Below are positions 33,991 to 39,622 of a stretch of DNA of 64,000 nt, one piece after another. The stretch's first letter is position 1, and each line of letters opens with the position of its first letter. Made by a program: the position numbers and the translations under genes. The DNA is taken from positions 310,001 through 374,000 of the forward strand of contig CASFDW010000002.1 of the NCBI GenBank assembly GCA_949293595.1, given 5' to 3'. Source of the stretch: an uncultured Spirochaetales bacterium. GTDB lineage: Bacteria; Spirochaetota; Spirochaetia; Sphaerochaetales; Sphaerochaetaceae. Below the pieces are notes generated by a model. The model was not told the DNA's origin, ran no database searches, and was given only the letters and a program-made list of their open reading frames with translations.

Positions 33991-35166
33991 TCATTTCGCC
34001 AGCTCGTAGATAGCTCTCATGTCCTCCCTTTGCAGAACCTTGAATGCTCCGAGCGTACGTTTCCCGTAGAAGGTGGCTTTGTCGAGCAGCTCTTCCATCT
34101 GTGCGTCTGAAAGGATGATGTCCGCCTCGGCAAGGCTTGTGGGCATGTCGAGCTCCTTGAAGAACGATATGAATTCCATTATCGTCTTTTCTGCTCCCTT
34201 TTCTCCGCTTTCCCTGATGCCGAACACCAGGCGTCCAAGCTTTGCAAACCTCTCCGGATCTGTCTTATAGACGTATTTCGACCAAGCCGGGAAGATTATG
34301 GCAAGACCTGCTCCGTGGGCGATGTCGAACATTCCTGAGAGCTCGTGTTCCAGCTGGTGGCAGGCCCAGTCTCCCCTCTGGTCGTTGCCAAGAGCCATAA
34401 GCCCGTTGTGGGAGAGGGATGAGGCCCACATGAGGCTTGCATGAGCCTCGTAGTCCTGTTTGTCCCTGAGACAGGCCGGACCCTTTTCCTTTACATTCCT
34501 TATCAGCGCTGCGGCAAGCTCGTCCGTGATGTCTATTCCTTTGCCAGCATGGAACCAGCGTTCTATCGTGTGCATCATTATGTCGACTGTTCCGACTTCT
34601 ATCTGATAATCGGGGAGGGTATAGGTGAGGCATGGGTTGAGAAGGGCGAATGCAGGTCGGCAGACATTGCTGTTGCAACCTCTTTTCAGCCAACCCTGCT
34701 CATCGTTTGTAATGACCGAGCTGTCGCTCATCTCGCTGCCTGTTGCGCTCAATGTGAGGACCACTCCGACCTTGATTGTTCCTTCGGGTGTTCTCCTGCC
34801 GCAGTAGAAGTCCCAGACGTCGCCCTCATGATAAAGTCCGTATCCGATTGCTTTTGCGCTGTCTATGACCGATCCGCCTCCTACTGCGAGGATGTGGTCG
34901 ACTTTTTCCTTCCTTCCGAGTTCTATGGCCTTTCTGATCAGCGACAGCCTGGGATTGGGTTTGACACCTCCCAGCTCGACATATGCGATCGACGCATCGT
35001 CCAGCTGTTTTCTTATCCTTGACAGCAGACCTGATTTTTCAGCGCTTGCTCCGCCATAGTGGATCAGGACCTTTGTGGCGCCGTCCGCGGCAAGCTCCTC
35101 GGCGGTCTTCATCTCCGCGTCTTGTCCGAATGTGACCCTTGTGGGCGTGTAGTACCGGCTTGTCAT
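33991..35166 (-). CDS. Iron-containing alcohol dehydrogenase (butanol dehydrogenase-like)
   Basis: A 391-residue NAD(P)H-dependent, metal-dependent dehydrogenase of the YqhD/BdhA branch. The nucleotide loop is ILAVGGGSVIDSAKAIGYG, and the following LSATGSEMSDSSVITN is typical. Metal ligands are the Asp near VEVGTVDIMMHTIERW (residue about 190) and the His residues in CHQLEHELSGMFDIAHGAGLA. It probably reduces aldehydes during fermentation. Translation begins within the last four bases of the two-receiver gene (ATGA overlap) after AAGGAGG, so it is the second gene of that operon. Confidence 0.92.
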   Translation of the reverse strand: MTSRYYTPTRVTFGQDAEMKTAEELAADGATKVLIHYGGASAEKSGLLSRIRKQLDDASIAYVELGGVKPNPRLSLIRKAIELGRKEKVDHILAVGGGSVIDSAKAIGYGLYHEGDVWDFYCGRRTPEGTIKVGVVLTLSATGSEMSDSSVITNDEQGWLKRGCNSNVCRPAFALLNPCLTYTLPDYQIEVGTVDIMMHTIERWFHAGKGIDITDELAAALIRNVKEKGPACLRDKQDYEAHASLMWASSLSHNGLMALGNDQRGDWACHQLEHELSGMFDIAHGAGLAIIFPAWSKYVYKTDPERFAKLGRLVFGIRESGEKGAEKTIMEFISFFKELDMPTSLAEADIILSDAQMEELLDKATFYGKRTLGAFKVLQREDMRAIYELAK

Positions 35167-38084
35167 TCTTCATCCTCCTTGATCACGGCCCTGCTGATCC
35201 TGCCGTTGACCTTTATTATCAGGTTTTTCCTGCTCCTTACATGCAGGAAGTGCTTTGTTTCCTTGACTCTGTCCATTTGCTCCATATGGCGGAAATCGAC
35301 AATCCCGTCCCCGTGGAGCGGGTTGACGGTGAGATATATGCAACCGAGGCTGGTCATGTTCTGGAAGAAATGTGTGCCCTGGCTCGGCTCGACGTCCAGT
35401 TCCCTGAGTCCGGTCTCGACGATGACGTGCGCCTTCGATATGTCCGACCATGTGCAGGGGATTCCCAACCATCGGTCGGAGGAGCCGAGACGTCCGCAGG
35501 CAATGAGTACGTATCCTCCGTCCATCCCGCTGTTCAGCTCGCTCAGCTCGGATGCCATCTCGACCATTTCGGAAGCCTTGAATGCCTCCTCCTTGATGGT
35601 GACGATGTCCCGGATGTCGTCAACAATCCCGTTGCCCATTACCTTCTCCGCATAGATCAGCGCATCCGTCTTGTCTTTTTCCTCCACCACGATGTCGGAT
35701 TCGGTGACCTGGTTGCTTATCGGTCTGATCTGGAGTATCGAGAAATCCGGCTTCTCCCGTTCGGTGTTGACAGCAAACTCTATCTCGACCGGTTCTGCCA
35801 TGCTCCGTGTGCCCATCTTGAGTATCTGATCGACGATTTTCGCCACAGGAAGCGTGTCGTATTTCAAGATTCCGTTGAATGTGAGAAGGTTCACACCGTT
35901 TTTATCGATCCTCTCGCTCACCATACCTGTCTTCATGTCGAGGCTGGAAAAGATGCTTTTCATGCTTTTGGGCCATGACGAGGCCTTTGAAATTGGCAGC
36001 TTTTCAAGGTTGTCGCTGTCCTCTAGCGGGCGGAAGGGTTTGTTGAGGTCGAGGGCGTAGAACGTATCCTGGTTGCTCGATTCGCTTCCGGTCAGGGCCT
36101 GGTTTGGTCTTTTCGGTTTGGCGGGGCAGAACCGGAAGCTTGTCCCTTCGTCGACGACCGTCTTCCCAAAGCCGAACGACAGCATGCCTATCCCGTCCTC
36201 CTGGCTCTGCCCGGGGGCAGGGTAGTAGTTCAGGCTCCTGGCGACACCGGATATGTTCGGATACCAGTAGTTGTCGTGTGCGCTTCCCGTGATCTGTTGT
36301 ATGATCACGGCCATCTTCTCATCCTCGAGTGTGTGGTCGGTGTTCTTCAGGTATTCCTTTGCACAGTGGAAGTAGGTGCTGGCCCATACCGTGCGCACTG
36401 CATCCTTGAGTTCCTCGTATCGGTGGAAGTCATCCCCCTGGTTAGGGATCATGCATGTCTGGTAGACGCCAGCAAATGGCTGGAAATGCGAATCCTCGAG
36501 CAGTGATGACGAGCGTACGGAGATTGGCACCCGGATGACCTGGATGATCTGTGCAAGTGAATCCTCCAGACATTTCGGAATCGGTTTCGACAGGAACAGC
36601 TTGAGGATGTCCTCGTCGCTTTGATCCACGAAATAAAGGTTCTGAAGCTTGTTCTCGGACATGAACATGTCGAATATCTCGGTGGTGATGACGACGGTCC
36701 TGGGTGTGGAGAGGTATAGGTCCGGATATTCCTTCCTGATGCCCATCGCATGCATCTCCATCGCGAGAAACGCCAGTCCGCGTCCTTTGCCTCCCATGCT
36801 GCCTTTCCCGATTCTTGAAAAATGAAGGGTCTCGTCGTAATGTGCGGAGGAAAATTCCGCGATGACGCCCCTCGTGCGGTCCGAACGGTATTCCTTTATC
36901 GTCTCATACAGGAGCTTCCTGACATCCTCCGCATCGTTGTGTTCGGATAGATTGATAGGTTTTATCATCGATGCCAGCTGATAGAGGGACTGTGCCCTCA
37001 GCCATCTCGAGAAATCATTCTTCCTGGAATGGTAGACAAAGGATTCGATCGGTATGGTCTTTATCATGCTCTGAAGGTCCTTCATCGTCTCCGCCTTCCC
37101 GATCTCCTTTCCCGTTGCCGGATTGATGAAAATGAACGGACCGAAATTGTAGTGCTTCAAAAAGTGCTCTTCAAGATCCTGAAGGAGTGTGGGGGACAGC
37201 TTCCAGATGAAATCCGCACCCAGCCTTACCGCGTCCTCCCTGTTCTTCTCCTCCCTCGACTGTATCAGGACCGGTATCTCAGGATCGATTTCCTTTATGT
37301 TCCGGCACAGCTCCAGGCCTGCTGTCTCCCTCCTGCCGTCATGCATCGGAAAAGAGACGTCGGAAATCACGCCGAGGACGTTCTGCCTGTATTTTGTGAA
37401 AAGGTTCCAGGCCTCGTCATAGTTTCTGGCGAGAACAATCTTTGGCCTTCCCCTCATCCTCAGCGTCTTGCCCCATTCGTTCAACGCCTCCAGGATGCTT
37501 ATCCTGTTCTGGTGTATCAGGCAGGTATACATCTGCGGCAGGTATGAGGAGATGAATCTTACGGAGTCCTCGACGAGGATTATCACCTGCACATCCGCCT
37601 CGTCGGTGTCATGGTCTATGTTTATCCTGTCCTCTATCAGCTTGATCATCGCCAAAAAAAGCGATGCGTTTCCCTGCCAATAGAATAGATAGTCTATGTA
37701 AGGGCAGTTCTCGCCCTTCAGCACCTTCGCCTTCCTGTGGTCGGGAGAGGGGGAGAGGGCTATGACCGGCATTCCCGGACGGATCTTCTTGATGTTCTCG
37801 GCAAGCAGCTCGACACGCCCGGTCTGCAGATCCAGCATCGTGATCACCAGGTCGAAATTCAATGTGGAAAGGAGCTTGAGCGCCTCATCCTCGTCATTGG
37901 TGTGGGTGATCTTTGGAGGATTGGAAAGCCCCAGCGCGGTGTATTCCTGATAGAGTTCCTCCTCGACCCTTCCGTCCTCCTCGAGCATGAAACGGTCGTA
38001 ATCCGAGCATATGAGCAGTACGTTGTAGATGTGTTTCAGCATGAGGTTGCTGAAAGGCAGCCAGGTTTGATCAAGTAGATACAT
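35163..38084 (-). CDS. Tandem receiver domains fused to a PEP-synthase/PPDK-type nucleotide-binding domain
   Basis: A 973-residue cytoplasmic protein. Residues 10-140 and 170-320 look like response-regulator receivers: LLICSDYDRF, FDLVITMLDLQTGR and VIALSPSP in the first; VIILVEDSVRF, LGVISDVSFPMHDGRRE and VLIQSREEKN in the second, with Asp kept at the acceptor position. Residues 450-790 are the ATP-grasp PEP/pyruvate-binding domain (GKGSMGGKGRGLAFL, PISVRSSSLLEDSHFQPFAGVYQT, EIEFAVNTE, SILQIRPIS). I see neither the phospho-His swivelling domain nor the PEP barrel, so it is not a complete PEP synthase. A role as a phospho-signalling or dikinase-like regulator is inference. It is cotranscribed with the alcohol dehydrogenase and has a leaderless promoter. 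Confidence 0.82.
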   Translation of the reverse strand: MYLLDQTWLPFSNLMLKHIYNVLLICSDYDRFMLEEDGRVEEELYQEYTALGLSNPPKITHTNDEDEALKLLSTLNFDLVITMLDLQTGRVELLAENIKKIRPGMPVIALSPSPDHRKAKVLKGENCPYIDYLFYWQGNASLFLAMIKLIEDRINIDHDTDEADVQVIILVEDSVRFISSYLPQMYTCLIHQNRISILEALNEWGKTLRMRGRPKIVLARNYDEAWNLFTKYRQNVLGVISDVSFPMHDGRRETAGLELCRNIKEIDPEIPVLIQSREEKNREDAVRLGADFIWKLSPTLLQDLEEHFLKHYNFGPFIFINPATGKEIGKAETMKDLQSMIKTIPIESFVYHSRKNDFSRWLRAQSLYQLASMIKPINLSEHNDAEDVRKLLYETIKEYRSDRTRGVIAEFSSAHYDETLHFSRIGKGSMGGKGRGLAFLAMEMHAMGIRKEYPDLYLSTPRTVVITTEIFDMFMSENKLQNLYFVDQSDEDILKLFLSKPIPKCLEDSLAQIIQVIRVPISVRSSSLLEDSHFQPFAGVYQTCMIPNQGDDFHRYEELKDAVRTVWASTYFHCAKEYLKNTDHTLEDEKMAVIIQQITGSAHDNYWYPNISGVARSLNYYPAPGQSQEDGIGMLSFGFGKTVVDEGTSFRFCPAKPKRPNQALTGSESSNQDTFYALDLNKPFRPLEDSDNLEKLPISKASSWPKSMKSIFSSLDMKTGMVSERIDKNGVNLLTFNGILKYDTLPVAKIVDQILKMGTRSMAEPVEIEFAVNTEREKPDFSILQIRPISNQVTESDIVVEEKDKTDALIYAEKVMGNGIVDDIRDIVTIKEEAFKASEMVEMASELSELNSGMDGGYVLIACGRLGSSDRWLGIPCTWSDISKAHVIVETGLRELDVEPSQGTHFFQNMTSLGCIYLTVNPLHGDGIVDFRHMEQMDRVKETKHFLHVRSRKNLIIKVNGRISRAVIKEDEE

Positions 38085-38120
38085 AGCTTTGATTCTAACA
38101 GGAAGACGTGAGGTTGACAA
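38085..38120 (-). promoter_or_regulatory. Leaderless promoter of the two-receiver gene
   Basis: On the minus strand TTGTCA (38115-38120), exact 17-nt spacer, TAGAAT (38092-38097), then 7 nt to the ATG at 38084. Confidence 0.68.
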
Positions 38121-38236
38121 ATGAATGGAATGGAACATCCTGTATTTGATAAATTAAAGATATCGCTAATTTTAAGTAAATAAAAATTACATATAGCCAA
38201 AAAAGATAGGTAAAGATTGAGTTATCAAATATTTTC

Positions 38237-38265: not shown

Positions 38266-38284
38266 GAATCTGCTAGGAGGACTT

Positions 38285-39622
38285 ATGTATAATCTCGATA
38301 GTTTCATGAAGGACCTTGAAAGAAGGAATCCTTGTGAACCGGAATTCCTGCAGGCGGTGCGGGAAGTTGTCGAATCGGTCCTGGATGTCGTCAATGAGAA
38401 TCCACTGTATCTCAAGAACAAGATCCTTGAAAGGATAACCGAACCCGACAGGGTCTTCTCCTTCAAGGTCGAATGGGAGGACGACGAGGGGAATATACAG
38501 GTCAACCGCGGTTACCGTGTGCAGTTCAACAACGCTCTCGGCCCATACAAGGGCGGACTGCGCTTCCATTCCTCCGTAACGCTCGGGTCCCTGAAGTTCC
38601 TAGGTTTCGAGCAGACTTTCAAAAACAGCCTTACAACGCTTCCGATGGGCGGCGGAAAGGGTGGTTCCGATTTTTCCCCGAAAGGTAAGAGCGATGCCGA
38701 GATTCTGCGCTTCTGCAGGTCGTTCATGACCGAGTTGCAGAAATACATCGGTCCGGACACCGATGTCCCTGCCGGCGACATAGGTGTGGGAGCAAGGGAG
38801 ATCGGTTTCCTTTATGGACAATATAAGAGGCTCAGAAGCGAGAATACCGGAGTGCTCACAGGCAAGGGTCTGGACTACGGTGGTTCATTGATAAGGCCGG
38901 AGGCGACAGGCTACGGAACAATGTATTTCGCTTCCGAGATGCTCAAGGCGCATAATGACACCATGGAGGGCAAGAGGATTGCAATCTCCGGGTTCGGCAA
39001 TGTGGCCTGGGGCGCGGTGATGAAGGCAAGCCAGCTTGGGGCAAAGGTCGTGACGATAAGCGGTCCGGATGGATACGTTATCGACGAGGATGGAATCTCC
39101 ACTCCTGAAAAGTGGGCATACATGCTCCAGCTCAGGGCGAGCAACAACGATGTCGTGGAGCCTTATGCAAAGCGGTTCGGAGCCAGGTTCGTTCCAGGGC
39201 GCAAACCCTGGGAGGTGCCGGTCGATATGGCGTTCCCGTGCGCAATCCAGAACGAGCTTGGCCTGGAGGATGCGGTGAAGCTCCATGAGAACGGCGTGAA
39301 GTATGTCGTGGAAACCTCGAACATGGGTGCCAGAAGGGAGGCCATGGAGTATTTCATCGAGCACCGGATCCCGTTCGTACCGGGCAAGGCTGCAAATGCG
39401 GGAGGCGTCGCGGTCTCCGGATTGGAGATGAGCCAGAACGCGATGCATCTCAGGTGGACCGAGGCCGAGGTCGATGACAAGCTCAAGCATATAATGCACT
39501 CCATACATGCCGCCTGCATCGCAGAGGGCGTGGAGGATGACGGATATGTGAATTATGTCAAGGGCGCCAATATCGCAGGATTCAAGAAAGTCGCGGACGC
39601 GATGTGCCAGCTGGGATATTGA
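38285..39622 (+). CDS. gdhA: Glutamate dehydrogenase, hexameric (NADP type)
   Basis: A 445-residue enzyme interconverting 2-oxoglutarate plus ammonia and glutamate. The catalytic region has NNALGPYKGGLRFHSSV, LPMGGGKGGSDFSPKGKS (active Lys) and DVPAGDIGVGAREIGFLYG. The dinucleotide-binding fold is IAISGFGNVAWGAVM, with Gly-Asn in place of an acidic residue, in line with NADP. The length fits the small GdhA type. A CTAGGAGGACTT site precedes the ATG. It is a single-gene unit with its own promoter and terminator, and it lacks the hairpin leader seen on the glutamine genes. Confidence 0.96.
   Translation: MYNLDSFMKDLERRNPCEPEFLQAVREVVESVLDVVNENPLYLKNKILERITEPDRVFSFKVEWEDDEGNIQVNRGYRVQFNNALGPYKGGLRFHSSVTLGSLKFLGFEQTFKNSLTTLPMGGGKGGSDFSPKGKSDAEILRFCRSFMTELQKYIGPDTDVPAGDIGVGAREIGFLYGQYKRLRSENTGVLTGKGLDYGGSLIRPEATGYGTMYFASEMLKAHNDTMEGKRIAISGFGNVAWGAVMKASQLGAKVVTISGPDGYVIDEDGISTPEKWAYMLQLRASNNDVVEPYAKRFGARFVPGRKPWEVPVDMAFPCAIQNELGLEDAVKLHENGVKYVVETSNMGARREAMEYFIEHRIPFVPGKAANAGGVAVSGLEMSQNAMHLRWTEAEVDDKLKHIMHSIHAACIAEGVEDDGYVNYVKGANIAGFKKVADAMCQLGY

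Follow-up and report, generated by a model that had tools for sequence, protein, structure and literature searches.

What is the output of a protein that joins receiver domains to the ATP-grasp domain of a PEP synthase? We addressed this question for a gene in a 64,000-nucleotide stretch of DNA from an uncultured Spirochaetales bacterium (hereafter, the window), using Pfam, fold prediction, and the gene neighborhoods of its relatives. Database records label homologues of this REC-PPDK protein "PEP/pyruvate-binding domain-containing protein." They belong to a little-studied family that, in gut spirochaetes and relatives of Bacteroides, is encoded beside glutamate dehydrogenase (GDH) and probably senses signals and controls ammonia assimilation. 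GDH-based ammonium assimilation is central in gut Bacteroidota, where the control of GDH activity is poorly explained. A conserved protein that is annotated by its PEP-synthase-like domain only, and that accompanies GDH genes in various orders and with exchangeable sensors, is a direct, testable candidate for a GDH regulator.

REC-PPDK fusions of Bacteroides have been noted in a census of two-component systems (PMC5847659), in keeping with the full-length homologues that we found in Parabacteroides, Phocaeicola, and Prevotella; the census passages that mention these fusions are silent on GDH linkage, the C-terminal domain, and function. Our searches of the open-access literature found no description of the function, C-terminal domain, or GDH link of REC-PPDK, and nothing usable on histidine phosphorylation of GDH. 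Baggio and Morrison (1996), as cited in PMC4539542, described one or more trans-acting genes downstream of gdhA in Bacteroides thetaiotaomicron, which are similar in lying near gdhA and affecting GDH activity in a Bacteroides. In Phocaeicola and Parabacteroides, the REC-PPDK gene has two GDH genes in its vicinity: it lies divergently upstream of one and a few kilobases from the other, on its downstream side; because this position differs, it may not be the gene to which that citation refers.

Domains of the REC-PPDK Protein

The minus-strand gene was confirmed as a real open reading frame, and its features are collected in Table 1. In the 973-aa product, Pfam detected a response-regulator domain (Response_reg, 2.1e-9), the PPDK_N domain (1.3e-42), and a weak DUF5752 match, a family on which we found nothing in the open-access literature. 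An AlphaFold model (built with 29 sequences; mean pLDDT 71) retrieved rifampin phosphotransferase, PPDK, PEP synthase, and receiver proteins in Foldseek, the last in line with the receiver folds that had been proposed from the DNA letters and open reading frames alone (the sequence-only reading).

Table 1. Features of the REC-PPDK locus (window coordinates unless a locus is named)
Feature	Position	Strand	Basis or remark
REC-REC-PPDK_N-"SxGTHF" protein, 973 aa	35163..38084	-	Open reading frame, Pfam, and starts of relatives
Receiver 1 (pseudo-receiver), residues 18-160	37605..38033	-	M83 in place of the phospho-Asp; no acidic pair or Lys
Receiver 2, residues 165-320	37125..37592	-	E172, D173, D242, S276, K295 kept
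Linker, weak DUF5752 match, residues 330-403	36876..37097	-	Pfam
PPDK_N ATP-grasp, residues 429-803	35676..36800	-	Catalytic-type K433, R524, E769, Q785, R787
C-terminal "SxGTHF" domain, residues 810-973	35166..35657	-	No Pfam or PDB sequence match
Invariant His905 codon	35370..35372	-	N-terminus of predicted helix
Sigma-70-like promoter TTGTCA-17-TAGAAT	38092..38120	-	-10 end to ATG, 7 bases; leaderless
Iron-containing alcohol dehydrogenase gene	33991..35166	-	ATGA overlap with REC-PPDK stop codon
GDH gene, divergent	38282..39622	+	AGGAGG ribosome-binding site; ~200 bp from REC-PPDK gene
Relatives with tandem sensor-like repeats	L126:8883-13448, L135:9163-13725, L128:7660-11505		

The hallmark of PEP synthase and PPDK—a PF01326 ATP-grasp domain with its catalytic residues—is present. 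K433, which sits in the retained glycine loop, R524, E530, D531, E769, and Q785 are invariant among 124 aligned relatives, R787 is found in most, and an hhalign comparison with PPDK agrees (Prob 95, E 1.7e-8). As in PEP synthase and PPDK, the ATP-grasp domain is followed by a domain with a key histidine. Unlike those enzymes, the protein has no match to PF00391, the swivelling phospho-His domain with its TSH motif (which matches three other genes in the same genome), and no Pfam match to the PEP/pyruvate TIM barrel; only ~165 residues follow the ATP-grasp domain. It also falls far below the cut-off of the NCBIfam model (29.9 vs. 739.75 bits). Rifampin phosphotransferase is the best PDB fold match to the full model (5hv3; E 1.4e-7); that enzyme (Rph), however, lacks receivers, and it combines a canonical His domain with one that binds the antibiotic. 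The sequence-only reading, which credited the protein with only the ATP-grasp part of PEP synthase, was thus right that the canonical His domain and the barrel are absent but overlooked a folded domain at residues 810-973.

Are the receivers functional? We assigned their sites by setting the sequence against the predicted strands. Receiver 2 has the full response-regulator residue set (acidic pair, phospho-Asp, Ser/Thr, and Lys), with E172 and D173 after strand 1 and D242 closing strand 3. Receiver 1 fails the same comparison and is a pseudo-receiver, its acceptor position being occupied by Met83 here and by Thr in G039 and G074, so that the earlier statement that both receivers keep their Asp applies to receiver 2 only. 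No histidine kinase gene adjoins the REC-PPDK gene; the genome has 18 HATPase_c matches, 17 of them above the cut-off and with candidate kinases among the 17.

A C-Terminal Domain with an Invariant Histidine

The protein had been described as lacking the swivelling His, and PF00391 is indeed absent; however, the domain right after the ATP-grasp carries an invariant histidine, H905, within residues 800-973, the very region in which the sequence-only reading had said that a divergent His domain would count against it. Pfam gave no credible match to this C-terminal domain in any of 30 members, nor did a profile search of PDB sequences, and predicted alone it has a confident fold (pLDDT 87.6, pTM 0.87). 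The motif SxG[TS]HF occurs in 125 of the 128 relatives collected, the other three being cut or broken reading frames. H905 is the sole His conserved throughout the 124 aligned members; because these were selected by the motif itself, the meaningful claim is that every complete member has H905 and that conservation of any other His falls well short of this. "Lacking the His" is therefore probably wrong in spirit, and we treat H905 as the likely phospho-acceptor. If confirmed, the domain would be a new phosphocarrier.

Could this be a diverged form of the canonical domain? In the predicted structure, H905 opens a helix between two strands (beta-loop-His-helix-beta), an order that resembles the surroundings of the PPDK phospho-His, and the domain's final segment, which reads DGxxG.V in several relatives, looks to us similar to that of the PEP-utilizer domain. 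In contrast, profile-profile comparison by hhalign did not relate the C-terminal domain to the His domain of PEP utilizers (Prob 0.9%), and no PPDK-type chain was among the top 50 fold matches. Those matches were weak (E 0.009 or worse) and included LD-carboxypeptidase, the CPSase small subunit, and PA domains. Some of them contain the swivelling beta/beta/alpha fold; as two of the three share another fold too, the likeness is only a hint. A canonical His domain was sought in residues 800-973 by Pfam, PDB profile search, and hhalign and was rejected.

Relatives and Architectures

How widespread is this architecture? Full-length homologues occur in Parabacteroides, Phocaeicola, and Prevotella (40 to 42% identical over 98 to 99% of the length; the Bacteroidota sample consists of three records). 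The names of the nearest relatives, uncultured Spirochaetales and Candidatus Ornithospirochaeta, point to a gut spirochaete as the host. The unit shared by all is the ATP-grasp domain plus the SxGTHF domain (the module), which occurs in three architectures: the receiver type; a second with an unassigned N-terminal region; and a third in which a sensor-like N-terminal region precedes the module and a nucleotidyltransferase follows it. Receivers were not detected in the latter two. In relatives of 1281 to 1522 aa, tandem copies of a sensor-like repeat without a family assignment (ERLKELRGINKTS...) precede the receivers (Table 1).

A 430-aa stand-alone paralogue of the second architecture's N-terminal region (TG..LD..L..GDNVVWQV) adjoins the full-length gene, just upstream, at L167:7665-8957 and looks by eye like a KaiC-type domain without its P-loop. 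We rejected a KaiC-like assignment for the N-terminal region itself; the pattern TG..LD..L..GDN was seen by eye only, and Pfam and the PDB profile search were unsupportive. A role in a defense system was likewise dismissed (no PADLOC match), and viral contigs contained no relatives. An apparent frameshift, either real or an assembly error, splits the REC-PPDK gene in two genomes, at L109:8938-11879 and G310:C57:3607-4835.

Linkage to Glutamate Dehydrogenase

The strongest clue, missed by the sequence-only reading, is the linkage of the module to GDH. A divergent GDH gene is found in the window and in the majority of near relatives; Parabacteroides distasonis and Phocaeicola massiliensis, with proteins only ~40% identical, have one as well. 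When further loci were taken from other spirochaete families, 54 of 69 receiver-type loci had GDH nearby: 28 divergent at <1 kb, 10 divergent at 1 to 8 kb, and, on the same strand throughout, 7 with GDH directly downstream and 9 with GDH upstream. Several of the remaining 15 stop at a contig edge. Module relatives without receivers were meant as a negative control, and they too proved to be linked (16 of 20 loci in the two other architectures, with the GDH of four belonging to a different class). In the nucleotidyltransferase type, a GDH of this other class (33% identity) is immediately upstream on the same strand. We therefore widened the conclusion from the receiver proteins to the module.

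Among 198 evenly drawn genomes, 32 of 44 module loci had a GDH match no farther than 10 kb away, about a quarter of the loci being unlinked; by our own estimate, fewer than one linked locus would be expected by chance. GDH was present in 38 of 40 module genomes (two had none detected) vs. 81 of 158 others, a difference with a Fisher p of 5e-8, uncorrected for relatedness. Relatedness inflates the linkage counts. Still, the linkage recurs in three architectures and two phyla, with two classes of GDH and in more than one gene order, which a single inherited neighborhood could hardly explain. The genomic association of the module with GDH is well supported. Linkage alone is no proof that the module acts on GDH, since common physiology would suffice.

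Other arrangements were seen along the way. Another copy of GDH is present in the genome (G000:C2:406683-407066), ~58 kb away from that in the window. At L128:7660-13630, three genes are consecutive on one strand: REC-PPDK, a 219-aa response regulator of the LuxR type, and GDH. At L167:15641-18003 and L170:5392-7630, GDH is followed by a pair that by eye resembles ferredoxin-NADP reductase and the glutamate synthase small subunit, suggesting an NADPH-GDH cluster.

Proposed Function and Alternatives

How might the module act? We give about an even chance to a sensor-gated phosphotransferase of the PPDK/PEP-synthase type acting on GDH or, more broadly, on control of the glutamate/ammonium node. 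D242 of receiver 2 would be phosphorylated by a histidine kinase whose gene lies elsewhere, which would release the ATP-grasp domain to phosphorylate H905 from ATP. The phosphoryl group would then pass to a partner, because there is no PEP barrel to receive it; this partner would most likely be GDH itself or else a protein or metabolite that regulates GDH. The sensory parts vary while the module and GDH stay constant, which fits a regulator with its output directed at GDH, and the invariant ATP-grasp residues together with H905 suggest that this output is phosphotransfer. A signalling dikinase or a glucan/phosphate-transfer regulator had been proposed before; the intact receiver 2 and the relatives with sensor-like repeats or a nucleotidyltransferase speak for signalling, but the glucan role found no support. 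A bolder version is tentative and, in our judgment, rather doubtful: that in Bacteroidota and Spirochaetota of the gut, the module represents a protein phosphotransferase of a new class, with a phospho-His intermediate on a new type of carrier domain, and reversibly controls GDH under swappable sensors. If true, the class would be neither HisKA/HATPase nor Ser/Thr kinase.

Alternatively, the protein could be a metabolic enzyme, with glutamate, 2-oxoglutarate, or a related metabolite that GDH makes or uses as the substrate of its dikinase or ligase activity and with receivers that merely regulate it. The catalytic residues are intact, PPDK_N relatives use small molecules such as pyruvate and rifampin, prodigiosin-ligase models also match the ATP-grasp domain, and the L167 and L170 clusters hold NADPH/ferredoxin-reductase-like genes. 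However, a third, substrate-binding domain is missing, the sensory N-terminal domains turn over strongly, and the module is linked to two different GDH classes; we consider such an enzyme unlikely. The invariance of H905 and the catalytic-type ATP-grasp residues in 124 members also makes improbable a noncatalytic regulator that binds ATP and GDH and acts allosterically, without phosphotransfer, even though the lack of a canonical His domain and a PEP barrel, and a C-terminal domain unlike any known structure in the fold search, would suit it.

An intact receiver 2 and an invariant His in one chain, with no histidine kinase gene adjoining, could also be read as a self-contained phosphorelay, in which the ATP-grasp domain phosphorylates H905 and H905 the protein's own D242, so that an ordinary histidine kinase would not be needed. 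However, H905 is also present in the two other architectures, where no receiver was detected, and candidate kinases are available among the above-threshold HATPase_c matches, which leaves this the explanation in which we place very little credence.

Gene Neighbor, Start, and Promoter

The alcohol dehydrogenase gene, earlier proposed to be cotranscribed with the REC-PPDK gene, overlaps its stop codon and is close to it in 25 of 30 near relatives, but the link is lineage-specific, being absent at more distant loci. We therefore rejected the alcohol dehydrogenase as the main functional clue.

The Met at 38084 is the first residue in nearly all of 29 relatives, and we thus prefer this start to that of the 991-aa open reading frame at 38138. 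The proposed leaderless promoter is conserved. Nine relatives (L005-L009, L024, L025, L028, and L030) have a -10 placed 6 to 7 bases 5' of the start codon, and no ribosome-binding site is visible before the REC-PPDK ATG, in contrast to the divergent GDH gene; the leaderless start is therefore well supported. In most other relatives, the ATG is reached by a small upstream gene rather than by a -10. A small gene of ~78 aa, absent from the window, lies between GDH and REC-PPDK at L010:2369-2629, its end touching the ATG, and the arrangement is similar in 18 near relatives.
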